From NCBI RefSeq assembly GCF_013373795.3, contig NZ_CP088022.1, positions 5,456,001 to 5,520,000 on the forward strand: 64,000 bases of DNA, read 5' to 3'. Origin of the DNA: Bradyrhizobium quebecense. Its GTDB lineage: Bacteria; Pseudomonadota; Alphaproteobacteria; Rhizobiales; Xanthobacteraceae. The notes under the pieces are model-generated. The model ran no database searches and was not told the origin of the DNA. It worked only from the letters and a program-made list of their open reading frames with translations. A program made the position numbers and the translations under genes. Positions 17,808-21,469 of this stretch are shown piece by piece; within the stretch, counting starts at the first letter, position 1; the number at the start of each line of letters is the position of its first letter.

Positions 17808-18593
17808 ATGCGCTGGCTGAAATTCACCGCCGCGGGCAACACGTCCTGGGGCCTCGTCGAGGGCGACACCGTCATCACCGTGAACGGCGATCCGTTCGGT
17901 GAATGGAGCAAGACGGCGAAGACCCACGCCTTGAAGGACGTCAAGATCGAGCTGCCGCTGATCCCGCGCACCTTCTACTGCGTCGGGCTGAACTATCTGA
18001 AGCATCTCAAGGAAGCCGCCGACAAGGCCGGCACGGTGCCGAACGTGCCTGATCGTCCCGAGATCGGCTACCGCGCGCAGAACGCGCTGATCGCCCATGA
18101 CGAGAATGTCGTGATCCCGGCGAGTGCGACCGAGAAGATCCATTACGAGGGCGAACTGGTCGTGGTGATCGGCAAGAAAGCCAAGCACCTGACCGAAGCC
18201 AATGCGCTGGACTGCGTGTTCGGCTACACGATCGGCAACGACGTCTCCGAGCGCAGCTGGCAGAAGGCCGATCGCGGGCTGTGGCGCGCCAAGAACGCCG
18301 ACACGTTCAAGCCGATGGGCCCGTGGATCGAGACCGATGTCGATCTCGACCGCATGGAGACCGCAATCCGCGTCAACGGCAAGGAGACCGGCCGCTTCCG
18401 CACCAACGAGATGATCTTCGGCATCGTGCCCTTCCTCGTCGAGCTCTCGAAATACTTCACGCTGTCGCCCGGCGACGTGATCTGGATGGGCACCGACGGC
18501 GCCTCGCCGGACCTGAAGGACGGTGACGTGGTGGAGATCGACATCACGGGCATCGGGACTTTGCGGAACAGGTTCGTGAAGGAGAGGATGTGA
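17808..18593 (+). CDS. Fumarylacetoacetate-hydrolase-family protein
   Basis: A 261-residue FAH-fold protein: FYCVGLNYLKHLKEA (start of the domain), HYEGELVVVIGKKAK with the metal-binding Glu residues, GYTIGNDVSERSWQ, KPMGPWIETD and GDVIWMGTDGA followed by GDVVEIDITGIG. Such enzymes hydrolyse or decarboxylate acylpyruvate-type ring-cleavage products in a Mg-dependent way. It closes the three-gene operon begun at 15360; together they could oxidise, monooxygenate and hydrolyse one aromatic or organic-acid substrate (inference). Confidence 0.9.
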   Translation: MRWLKFTAAGNTSWGLVEGDTVITVNGDPFGEWSKTAKTHALKDVKIELPLIPRTFYCVGLNYLKHLKEAADKAGTVPNVPDRPEIGYRAQNALIAHDENVVIPASATEKIHYEGELVVVIGKKAKHLTEANALDCVFGYTIGNDVSERSWQKADRGLWRAKNADTFKPMGPWIETDVDLDRMETAIRVNGKETGRFRTNEMIFGIVPFLVELSKYFTLSPGDVIWMGTDGASPDLKDGDVVEIDITGIGTLRNRFVKERM

Positions 18594-18631
18594 GGCGGGT
18601 GGTCTGAGCCTGCGCGCACCTCACCCTCGGT

Positions 18632-18658
18632 GTCGTCCCGGCGAAAGCCGGGACCCAT
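18632..18658. repeat. Left part of a palindromic repeat interrupted by the IS element
   Basis: GTCGTCCCGGCGAAAGCCGGG followed by ACCCAT is one outer arm of a dispersed repeat. The matching part lies on the other side of the IS at 20019-20126 and ends in TATGGGTCCCGG and CCCGGGACGACA. An uninterrupted relative is at 23874-23997, so the IS inserted inside such a repeat. Confidence 0.75.
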
Positions 18659-18689
18659 ATGTGGACGGCCCTCGTGGCACAAGAGCTTT

Positions 18690-18850
18690 CTGGGATTGGT
18701 CGGATCGCTGTCATCCATATGTCCGGCCTGTTTGATGCGATCGTGTTGATCGCTGGGCCAAGATGGTTTCCGCGACGCGAGTGCCAAACAACCTGGCGAC
18801 CTTGTGAAGGCCAATGGGTCCCGCGGCTTGTCTCGCGTTCTGGATCGATC
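18690..18850 (-). ncRNA. Candidate bridge/seeker RNA of the IS element
   Basis: Read on the minus strand, the 3' end of the IS folds as a loop closed by ACGCGAG (18838-18832) and CTCGCGT (18781-18775). Inside the loop CGGGACCCAT (18823-18814) equals the ten bases left of the insertion (18649-18658); a hairpin GGCCTT-CAC-AAGGTC (18812-18798) follows; then GGTTGTT (18793-18787) pairs with the right flank ATCAACC (20019-20025) at 6 of 7 positions. A second stem-loop (18760-18725, inner stem CGATC/GATCG) is followed by ACATATGG (18722-18715), complementary to the 8 bases spanning the circularised IS junction. This is the target-loop and donor-loop layout of IS110-family bridge RNAs. RNA ends are estimated. 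Confidence 0.65.
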
Positions 18851-18916
18851 GATCATTCCATCTGCTCTTGCAGCTCCGGTTCGTCCGGCGAGCGCTACGT
18901 CCGGCCGGCCGACCTG

Positions 18917-19945
18917 TTAGGTGACAGCGTTCATGCGTGCGGCATCATAGCTCTCGCCGGTCGCCATCAGCTTCCAGGCGATGCGGGCCACCTTGTTGGC
19001 GAGCGCCACGGCCGCAAGCTTCGGCGGCTTGCGCCTGAGCAACGCCACGAGCCAGCGCGAGGGGTGGCCGCGCCCGAGCCTTGCCTGCCGGATCACCGCG
19101 GTCGCCCCGGCCACGAGCAGGCGACGCAGGGTCTCGTCGCCAGCGCGGGTGATCTTGCCGAGCCTGGTTTTGCCGGCGGTGGAATGGTCCTTGGGCGTCA
19201 GGCCGAGCCAGGCCGCGAACAAGCGGCCGGAGCGGAAGGCGTGCGGGTCCGGCGTCTTCATCACAAGCGAGGTCGCGATGATCGGACCGACCGAGGGGAT
19301 CTGGGCCAGACGACGGCTTGTGGCGTTGGCCTGGTGCCAGGCCAGCAGCCTGGCCTCGACCGCCTTCAGCTCACCCTGCAACTGCGCATAGTCACGGCCC
19401 TGCATGGCGAACAGCTCGCGCGCCATAGCGGGAACGCTCTCGTCCTGCGTGATCCGGGCCAACAGCGGCTCGATCTTGTCCAACCCCTTCGGCGCGATCA
19501 GGCCAAACTCCGCCGCGTAGCCGCGGATCGCATTGCTGAGCTGGGTACGGCGGCCGATCAGCCCATCGCGGACACCTGCAAGCATCAGCGCGGCCTGCTG
19601 TTCGGCGCTCTTCACCGGCACAAACCGCATCCGCGGTCGGCCCATCGCTTCGCACACCCCATCCGCATCTCGCCCGTCGTTCTTGTTCCGCAGCACATAA
19701 GGCTTCACCAACTGCGGCGCTATCAGCTTCACCTCATGGCCAAGCTTGCCAAGCTCGCGCCCCCAGTAATGAGCCGCCCCGCAGGCCTCCATCCCGATCA
19801 CGGTCGGCGGAAGCTTGGCAAAAAACTCAAGCACCTGCTTGCGCGACAGCTTCTTGCGCAACACCGGCTGTTCCGCCGCGTCAACTCCATGCAGCACAAA
19901 AATATGCTTCGACGTATCCATCCCAATACGGATAATCTCTCTCAC
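18917..19945 (-). CDS. IS110-family transposase (DEDD recombinase)
   Basis: A 342-residue transposase. The N-terminal RuvC-like domain has the DEDD residues: Asp10 in IRIGMDTSKH, Glu53 in VIGMEACGAAHYWG, and Asp90/Asp93 in RNKNDGRDADGV. The C-terminal Transposase_20 domain carries AQIPSVGPIIATSLV, FAAWLGLTPKDHSTAGK with the likely catalytic Ser255, and KITRAGDETLRRLLVAGA. Length is normal for IS110 transposases and no frameshift is seen, so it may be active. The family is guided by an RNA from the non-coding end of the element. Confidence 0.95.
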   Translation of the reverse strand: MREIIRIGMDTSKHIFVLHGVDAAEQPVLRKKLSRKQVLEFFAKLPPTVIGMEACGAAHYWGRELGKLGHEVKLIAPQLVKPYVLRNKNDGRDADGVCEAMGRPRMRFVPVKSAEQQAALMLAGVRDGLIGRRTQLSNAIRGYAAEFGLIAPKGLDKIEPLLARITQDESVPAMARELFAMQGRDYAQLQGELKAVEARLLAWHQANATSRRLAQIPSVGPIIATSLVMKTPDPHAFRSGRLFAAWLGLTPKDHSTAGKTRLGKITRAGDETLRRLLVAGATAVIRQARLGRGHPSRWLVALLRRKPPKLAAVALANKVARIAWKLMATGESYDAARMNAVT

Positions 19946-20018
19946 GGACGGTCTCCTTGTCTGAGATTTACAACAACCTCATTCTGGCACACTGATGCCG
20001 TAGGGGGCCGTCCACACC

Positions 20019-20126
20019 ATCAACCACCGCCTTGTGTGTTGGAATTCGCTGGGGCCACAGCGTCGCACGACAACTGTACCCTGCGGTTATGGGTCCCGGG
20101 TCGCGCTGCGCTTGCCCGGGACGACA
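20019..20126. repeat. Right part of the palindromic repeat interrupted by the IS
   Basis: It starts directly at the IS border with ATCAACCACCGCCTTGTGTG and ends TTATGGGTCCCGGG to CCCGGGACGACA, complementary to the left arm at 18632-18658. The remaining 158 bp up to the serine hydrolase start hold no feature I recognise beyond its promoter region. Confidence 0.7.
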
Positions 20127-20284
20127 GCGAGTTTGTTGAGCGGGTCGTGAGTCACACGTCCGCATTCTCGCGACATTGCCCGTCGGGCCATGGTGACGTC
20201 ATCACACCACCACTTCATAACGTGACAGAAACAACAGAACCGCAATAACGTGCGGGCCGCTCGCACTTACCAGGCAAGGCAACC

Positions 20285-21469
20285 ATGCCGCTTTCACGCC
20301 GAACGTTGCTTCAGGGCTCGCTGCTATCAGCCGCAGGCATCGCCTGCAGGCCGTCGCCGGCCCTTGCCGACCCGCCCGCGGAGCTTCCGACATCGGAGCA
20401 ACGCAAGCAGATGGCGGGCCTCGCCGCCGACTTCATGAAGGAGTACGACGTCGCCGGTCTTTCCATCGCGGTTTCGATCACGGGAAAGCCGGCTTATGTG
20501 GAGGCGTTCGGCGTTGCGGATCGGGAGAGCGGCGAAGCGTTGACGCCGCAGCACCGCTTCCGGATCGCGAGCATATCGAAGCCGGTGACCTCGACCGGGA
20601 TCTTCACTCTCGTCGAAGCGGGCAAATTGCGGCTCGGCGATTACGTGTTCGGCACCAACTCCATTCTCGGTCAGGACTATCCGACGACGCCAACCCTGCA
20701 AAGCTTGAGGCCGTTGGGCTCATCCCGCTCGCCTGTCGAGCAGATCACGATCGAGCATCTGCTGACCCACACCACCGGGACCTGGGGCAACCAGTATCGC
20801 GATCCGATGTTCATGAACCCGGACTTGAAGCATCGCGAGCTGATCAACTGGACGCTGGAGCACATGCCGCTCACCAGTCCGCCGGGTGAGTCCTATGCCT
20901 ATTCGAACTTCGGCTATTGCATCCTCGGGCGCGTGATCGAGAAGCTCAGCGGCCGGAGCTACGGGCAATACATCAAGGACGCGGTCCTGAAGCGATGCGG
21001 CATCACCGACATGCAGATTGCCGGCAATACGCTGCGCGAGCGGGCCAGCAATGAGGTCAAGTACTATAGCCAGACCGGCGGCGATCCGTACTGGATGAAC
21101 GTCGCCCGGATGGATTCGCACGGCGGCTGGATTGCGACGCCGAGCAATTTGACGACGCTGTTCGTCCATATCGACGGCTTCAAGGACACCGAACAGCTAC
21201 TCACCGACGACAGCCTCCGCATCATGAGCACGCCCAGCACCGTCAACCCCCGCTATGCCAAGGGCCTGTTCATCACCGCCAACAACAACTGGTGGCACAG
21301 CGGCCTGCTGGACGGAACGACGACGATCTCGGTCCGGACCAACGGAAACTTCTGCTGGTCCGCGTTCAACAATACCAGGTCGCGGGACGGCATGAGCCGC
21401 GCTCTCGACCTGCTGGTCTGGCACATGGTCAAGACGGTGCCTGACTGGCAGCCGCAGAAGCGCGCGTAG
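20285..21469 (+). CDS. Serine hydrolase (class C beta-lactamase/esterase-like), Tat-exported
   Basis: A 394-residue protein. The N-terminus LSRRTLLQGSLLSAAGIACR has a twin arginine and a hydrophobic stretch, fitting a Tat signal, possibly with a lipobox-like Cys. The beta-lactamase-related catalytic set is complete: SISK (Ser-x-x-Lys), YSN in ESYAYSNFGY, and HSG in NNWWHSGLLDGT replacing the usual KTG. LLTHTTGTWG is another family mark. It acts in the periplasm on an ester, amide or peptidoglycan-like substrate; true beta-lactam resistance is not implied. It follows the IS and repeat remnant. Confidence 0.88.
   Translation: MPLSRRTLLQGSLLSAAGIACRPSPALADPPAELPTSEQRKQMAGLAADFMKEYDVAGLSIAVSITGKPAYVEAFGVADRESGEALTPQHRFRIASISKPVTSTGIFTLVEAGKLRLGDYVFGTNSILGQDYPTTPTLQSLRPLGSSRSPVEQITIEHLLTHTTGTWGNQYRDPMFMNPDLKHRELINWTLEHMPLTSPPGESYAYSNFGYCILGRVIEKLSGRSYGQYIKDAVLKRCGITDMQIAGNTLRERASNEVKYYSQTGGDPYWMNVARMDSHGGWIATPSNLTTLFVHIDGFKDTEQLLTDDSLRIMSTPSTVNPRYAKGLFITANNNWWHSGLLDGTTTISVRTNGNFCWSAFNNTRSRDGMSRALDLLVWHMVKTVPDWQPQKRA

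Follow-up and report, generated by a model that had tools for sequence, protein, structure and literature searches.

The DNA considered here is a 64-kb window of the Bradyrhizobium quebecense genome (9.17 Mb, 4 contigs); all positions refer to this window, and L numbers denote individual loci. On its minus strand the window harbors an insertion sequence (IS) of the IS1111 group with a length of 1365 bp (18658..20022). Its ends are probably canonical, extending 7 bp (left) and 3 bp (right) beyond the subterminal inverted repeats (sTIRs), and read TGATGGT followed by the sTIR on the left and the sTIR followed by ATA on the right, a pattern that recurs in most of the 57 elements compared below. 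The left (20005..20016) and right (18660..18671) sTIRs, both given for the minus strand, match each other at 12/12 positions, and their length of 12 bp lies within the 11-13 bp typical of the IS1111 group. A DEDD type transposase of 342 aa is encoded on the same strand (18917..19945), for which both Pfam models, DEDD_Tnp_IS110 and Transposase_20, scored over their cut-offs. This corresponds to the size (~330-350 aa), the N-terminal DEDD domain and the C-terminal PF02371 domain of IS1111 transposases. Within 18658-20022 the non-coding stretch downstream of the transposase gene amounts to ~259 nt versus ~77 nt upstream, the longer one being located 3' of the gene as in other IS1111 elements. The sTIRs, the two domains and the downstream non-coding region confirm the IS1111-like element that had been proposed in a preliminary description of the window, made from its sequence alone.

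Besides 28 near-identical full-length copies, the own genome contains an interrupted copy and three more at 83%, and the transposase frame is uninterrupted over its full length in 28 copies (27 at 100%, one at 99%). Both junctions were read in 30 copies (L001-L030). In all 30 the target is the same palindromic intergenic repeat, of which the element occupies one arm in identical orientation, in agreement with the single target and single orientation of IS1111 elements, and the repeat-directed target of the preliminary description was thereby recovered in every copy read. The occupied arm reads X-TG-ATGG[sTIR]...[sTIR]-TA-TGGGTCC in 30/30 copies, with the left flank X being TGGT in 29 of them and GGGT in L016. 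In the window, on the plus strand, the right target flank with the core dinucleotide (CGGGACC-CA) is located at 18649..18657 and the left target flank X, which reads TGGT when viewed in element orientation, at 20023..20026, while repeat matches place the other, uninterrupted arm of the host repeat (GGTTATGGGTCCC...) at 20082..20130. Two further arrangements were observed in the own genome: L029 (C1:6236810-6238135) lacks a stretch of ~57 bp internal to the query and retains both ends and the usual target, and L015/L022 (C1:54453-58222) are oppositely oriented copies ~1 kb apart, both with the usual junctions. A relative from outside Bradyrhizobium, L104 from a Caulobacteraceae metagenome-assembled genome, is also situated in front of GGGTCCCGGG; it has a longer RNA region and was set aside.

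Predicted guide arms and donor guides in the downstream RNA region

To the 80 relatives found belong L061-L073 (72-82% identical), L115 and L126, all from Bradyrhizobium, and a partial match from Microvirga (L112, 74%). Fifteen partial matches were dropped, and in nine of the other 65 relatives the sTIRs could not be read, which together with the window copy resulted in 57 elements. Guide arms were located by conserved RNA motifs without consulting the flanks. In this way 44/57 elements were parsed, and 28 non-redundant guide pairs with long enough flanks were kept. The 13 elements that were not used comprise L078, L104, L113, L116 and L130, set aside by hand because of their ends or RNA, and eight members of a second lineage with differing anchors; in addition, manual changes were made to the left flank of L063 (moved by one base) and to the right ends of L066, L126 and L099 (chosen anew).

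The region used for alignment (18661..18860, minus strand) lies 3' of the transposase gene on the same strand, as stated in the preliminary description, and in the alignment of 28 sequences the guide arms stand out as two hypervariable patches within a conserved scaffold. Both are located in a predicted target-binding loop (18775..18838, minus strand). The top-strand guide arm (18814..18823, minus strand, RNA CGGGACC-CA-U) is predicted to pair with the core TG and the right target flank, its extra U facing the base that precedes the core, and the bottom-strand guide arm (18789..18794, minus strand, RNA AGGU-UG) matches the left target flank and the core. Two short segments for the two target strands, with the top-strand match first, correspond to the organization of a seekRNA. 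The preliminary description had equated 18814-18823 with the ten bases flanking the element on the left (18649-18658); the identity holds, but given the element limits the last of these bases is part of the element itself. The second guide arm, 18789-18794, matches the other flank (3/4 bases plus core); the position given for it in the preliminary description (18787-18793) is shifted.

The relation between guides and targets was analyzed by permuting flanks among the relatives. Over the 28 pairs, the 5' arm agreed with its own right flank, taken as reverse complement, at 168/196 positions (permuted mean 72.4, standard deviation 7.7) and the 3' arm with its own left flank at 97/112 positions (permuted mean 33.6, standard deviation 5.2), scores of which neither was reached in 20,000 permutations. 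Chance matches between guides and flanks are thus excluded, and relatives with other guides occupy correspondingly different targets, which supports the interpretation of the preliminary description. With the 19 guides for non-repeat targets alone, 113/133 positions agreed for the 5' arm and 65/76 for the 3' arm; the outermost (seventh) base of the 5' arm, which matched in 5/19 of these elements, lies outside the guide in them. On visual inspection, three members of the second lineage (L114, L117 and L129) likewise match their own flanks. Several relatives (L082, L085, L095, L099, L117 and L124) lie within transposase genes belonging to other families (Mutator, ISL3, IS66, rve_3 integrase core, DDE_3), and therefore their guides read conserved sites of other mobile elements. 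The base following CA in the top-strand arm is U in 13/14 parsed repeat-targeting elements and G in L073. It corresponds to the base before the core in 11/19 non-repeat guides (mean 4.7; 7/20,000 permutations) and tracks it more weakly over all 28 guides (12/28, mean 7.0; 447/20,000). This base was not relied on as proof of TA-TG recognition; pairing with the A of the donor is likewise conceivable, in the manner of the 'handshake' base described for IS621 (excerpts of PMC11208158).

A second loop carries the putative donor guides. The left donor guide (18716..18722, minus strand, RNA ACAUAUG) equals the right element end plus core, and it agrees with the element's own right end and core in 28/28 aligned rows. 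In L107, where the right end is ACA in place of ATA, the donor guide is changed as well (ACACAUG), and L121 has AG in the cores of its left end and right junction and in the donor guide alike. The right donor guide (18762..18767, minus strand, RNA ACCAUC) would pair with GATGGT of the left element end. Seven bases (ACAUAUG) of the 8-base junction match at 18715-18722 in the preliminary description are identical to right end plus core, while the eighth matches the target flank and not the circle junction.

For the RNA fold, 35 pairs were predicted, of which the 24 pairs belonging to the two loops were counted. In the alignment, 96.4% of cells are paired at these positions, compared to a mean of 90.0 in shuffled alignments, and 0/500 shuffles reached this value; partner-sliding controls gave 24-41%. 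Changes on both sides were observed in 12 pairs of the two loops across the 28 elements, among them 6/7 pairs of the 7-bp helix that closes the target loop (18832-18838 / 18775-18781). This ACGCGAG/CTCGCGT helix, recognized already from the single window, is also present in the single-sequence fold, and the small hairpin between the two guide arms was recovered too. An Rfam scan of 18000-21000 left the guide RNA unmatched, the sole hit being a sub-threshold sX6 (18.7 bits versus 40).

Several observations weigh against guidance by this RNA. The bottom-strand guide of the window element matches its left flank at 3/4 bases. No identical guide in unrelated targets, which according to the preliminary description would contradict its reading, was found among the parsed elements; closest to it comes the element of Sphingobium sp. 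15-1, whose single guide pair agrees with one side at 6/7 (L082), 6/7 (L083) and 4/7 (L135) bases and with the opposite side at 3/4, 2/4 and 3/4, respectively. The guide of L128 matches at 4/7 on one side. The right donor guide ACCAUC mismatches the left end in several relatives, and donor guide and right junction disagree or are unparsed in L113, L116, L117, L118, L120, L122, L123 and L129, which belong to the second lineage or have damaged ends. Furthermore, the structure was counted on the alignment it was derived from, which favors it in the shuffle and slide controls, kinship alone can let related sequences beat shuffles without any structure, and the single-sequence fold is modestly better than shuffles (z -1.97; 6/200 shuffles fold equally well). 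As an observation in its own right, the occurrence of the Sphingobium guide pair at three target variants indicates that mismatches on both sides are tolerated. If instead the protein or the structure of the repeat alone set the target, with the RNA matches as coincidence or captured flank, the finding that every own copy read lies in the palindromic repeat would be accounted for. However, the permutation test spans unrelated targets, several of them inside other transposase genes, and the guides are embedded in a conserved scaffold away from the ends, so that targeting without RNA is extremely improbable. We consider the window element an intact and recently active IS1111-group member whose downstream RNA, probably transcribed and assembled with the transposase into a ribonucleoprotein, guides the transposase to its target, and assign this explanation as a whole a probability of about 0.93.

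Element ends and the two-base difference between empty and occupied arms

Read in element orientation, most relatives have TG as the core dinucleotide at both junctions. This replaces the AT of the preliminary description and also a core of T or AT as suggested by the empty repeat GGTTATGGG. Pfam was applied to the unjoined pieces flanking an element, with the core TG counted once. The profile of the Mutator transposase interrupted by L082 continues exactly across the element (252|253), as does AAA_34 at L102 (263|split codon|265), and rve_3 at L117 (22|split codon|24) continues in the canonical frame. These three relatives come from beyond Bradyrhizobium or belong to a second lineage. The interrupted profiles at L095 and L099 agree within a few positions, L085 leaves the position unfixed, and the pieces of L103, L107 and L135 were uninformative. 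In a frame test using the longest open frame on each side, nine of the ten elements whose two sides each have 100 or more open codons in element orientation fit TG counted once; the exception, L124, is uninformative, being located where a DDE_3 gene ends (profile position 144 of 146). In the opposite orientation, L107 is compatible with neither geometry, and for L117 the frames suggested two extra bases, whereas according to Pfam its domain continues in the canonical frame. Joined ends would be expected to read CCACATATGATGG with a 3 bp right end and CCACATGATGG with 7/1 ends. The 7/3 circle junction would form TTGTGC-17-TATGAT, which by eye is promoter-like, and CTTG[TC] is found in the right end of 27/28 elements (ATTG in L082). 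Relatives outside Bradyrhizobium retain ATA-TG at the right end in unrelated targets. While 7/3 extensions fit the relatives, the empty site of this lineage carries TA and is also compatible with 7/1. Because of the domain interruptions, the frame counts, the donor guide ATA-TG and the promoter-like circle junction, the ends of this lineage are probably canonical. Unusual ends were observed in four elements: in L099 and L118 the right end is tandemly duplicated downstream of the RNA region, and those of L113 and L123 lie within long, perfect inverted repeats of 28 and 74 bp, which sets them apart from the other elements listed.

With these ends, unoccupied repeat arms should differ from what was observed. 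Unoccupied arms read X-TA-TGGGTCC and occupied ones X-TG...ATA-TGGGTCC, i.e. occupied sites hold two bases fewer than the canonical ends predict, a difference that is invisible from a single window and thus escaped the preliminary description. In the own genome, 66/68 matches to GGTTN{0,2}ATGGGTCC, a pattern blind to TA-less arms, read GGTTATGGGTCC. Four repeat arms without an element read TGGTTGGGTCCC, the empty-site form predicted by canonical 7 bp and 3 bp ends (excerpts of PMC11187229). At eight occupied loci the arm of a sister genome was readable. For L011/L273 and L030/L290 the two genomes clearly share the repeat copy, with TGGTTATGGGTCC as sister arm, and the sister arms of L022, L023, L019 and L001 (3/7 compared sisters) have TATGGG behind GGT, the remaining four L001 sisters showing TATGG behind a different left flank; variants were present in the sisters of L007 (TGGCTATGGG) and L024 (TGGTGATGGG). 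None of the sister arms at these eight loci lacked the two bases (TA or variant). For the window site, seven of ten sister loci (L216-L225) were compared, leaving out L216, L223 and L225, and L015/L283 was excluded as the sister has no repeat arm at that place. L202 was rejected as a TA-less ortholog of an occupied site, its TA-less arm being the other arm of that repeat. Among 146 genomes of the genus, 97/101 left-junction matches (92 distinct places) and at least 140 right-junction rows were examined, and no extra TA beside the element was found on either side among the junction matches listed, two right rows having one more G. Two bases of the repeat seem to be removed at each insertion.

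TA-less arms were also followed through these genomes. The sequence TGGTTGGGTCCC occurs 98 times; its context was read in all cases and 74 occurrences were scored as repeat arms by a rough motif (L352 runs to the edge of a contig, and the scoring of L307 and L329 is ambiguous). Of these, 64 are in the 31 genomes with a detected element junction and ten in the other 115, an odds ratio of 12 relative to TGGTTATGGGTCCC (1751 in carriers, 3363 in others), which was counted irrespective of context. When carriage was permuted over genomes with phylogeny ignored, this concentration was not reached (0/100,000; 31 carriers, repeat arms only). No TA-less arm was found in ten repeat-rich genomes without a detected junction, and all eight genomes with at least four TGGTTGGGTCCC sites have an element junction. 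For two of the four own-genome TA-less arms a sister was alignable (L209/L261 and L207/L246), and it has two more bases in both. In other left-flank classes (CGCGGMG-TG-GGTCCC) 18 sites were found, eight of them scored as repeat arms and 6/8 located in carriers, with L390 doubtful by eye. Owing to their concentration in carrier genomes, the TA-less arms may be read as excision footprints, although simple deletion in some repeat subfamilies could contribute. Against such a reading, a raw-count permutation with the 16 genomes having a TGGT-class left junction is weak (658/10,000); these genomes hold 46/74 repeat-arm footprints. Moreover, the drafts G050 and G131 have seven TGGT-class footprints each with no TGGT-class left junction found, and G146 and G050 are carriers by one junction each; draft genomes undercount copies.

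The following course of events is inferred. The element would circularize by joining its left and right ends (ACATA-TG-ATGGT), and the donor loop would read these joined ends. In the target loop, the 5' arm would pair with the top strand over the core TG and about six bases rightward, and the 3' arm with the bottom strand over about four bases and TG. The complex of transposase and RNA could then find one arm of the repeat, and strand exchange at TG would yield a single insertion orientation. As a tentative cause of the two-base difference, to which we give slightly less than even odds, the guide halves may read non-overlapping target segments at the core (X-T and A-TG-GGTCCC rather than X-TG and TG-R). 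Each strand would be cut in the register of its own half, the offset would separate the cuts by two bases more than usual, with the two bases in between being lost per insertion. Later excision at the TG cores would rejoin the flanks and leave the TA-less footprint X-TG-GGTCC.

A different account of the same junctions assumes ends of 7 bp and 1 bp in this lineage, with the right-end 'TA' belonging to the target and conservative insertion between X and TATGGG without loss. It would explain the uniform junctions (at least 92 distinct left and at least 140 right junction rows) without a repair step, yet the conserved left donor guide ACAUA-UG agrees with a circle to which the right end contributes 3 bp. 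Also at odds with this account are the ATA-TG kept in unrelated targets outside Bradyrhizobium, the sequence at the 7/3 junction that by eye is promoter-like, with its CTTG[TC], and the three interrupted protein domains that fit 7/3 exactly. Conservative excision would furthermore restore TATGGG and not the TA-less arms enriched in carriers, which renders 7/1 ends unlikely. More improbable still is that TA-less arms pre-existed as the sole sites used, so that no base was lost. The match of the left guide to X-TG and the four empty arms of this type in the own genome would suit it, but the two bases present in sister arms at all eight occupied loci and the absence of TA-less arms from the ten repeat-rich genomes argue against it. 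Should offset guide halves indeed be the cause, guide spacing determines target deletions and genomes record past excisions.

Relation to known systems

Guide RNAs of IS1111 elements, targeting of repetitive extragenic palindromic (REP) sequences and natural re-programming are already published (2024 for this kind of system). For the IS1111 elements ISEc11, ISKpn4, ISPst6 and ISPa11, excerpts of PMC11187229 describe an RNA downstream of the gene with the top-strand match 5' of the bottom-strand match, REP sequences as the target of ISPa11, and, for IS1111 relatives, RNA-bound transposase, a circle with abutted ends and programmability; a rejoined target after ISEc11 excision is reported there as not detected. 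For IS621, cleavage of the strands next to the core and a Holliday junction are described (excerpts of PMC11208158). In the open-licence literature searched, no description of this element in Bradyrhizobium was found, and the fixed 2-bp difference and the footprints look new. The window element and its relatives add a large natural series to the published IS1111 guide RNAs, at a time when IS110/IS1111 enzymes are under study as programmable recombinases. Its 28 near-identical copies provide a convenient natural system, and insertions that differ from the empty site by two fixed bases allow a test of which half of the guide determines which cut. The footprints in turn bear on the question raised in PMC11187229, as excerpted, of circle formation without a detected rejoined target.

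The window element resembles the IS1111 seekRNA elements (PMC11187229, in excerpts) in its DEDD transposase of 330-350 aa, sTIRs of 11-13 bp, probable 7/3 extensions and long non-coding region 3' of the transposase gene, and differs from them in its host and repeat, in occupied sites that are 2 bp short and in apparent TA-less footprints. The order of its arms is the reverse of that in the IS110 group, as given for ISEc21 in the same excerpts. With IS621 (excerpts of PMC11208160 and PMC11208158) it shares two loops for target and donor, a shared core dinucleotide and a REP target. In contrast to the window element, whose RNA region is downstream and thus not of the upstream bridge RNA type of IS110/IS621, IS621 has its RNA upstream of the gene, short terminal repeats and a CT core.
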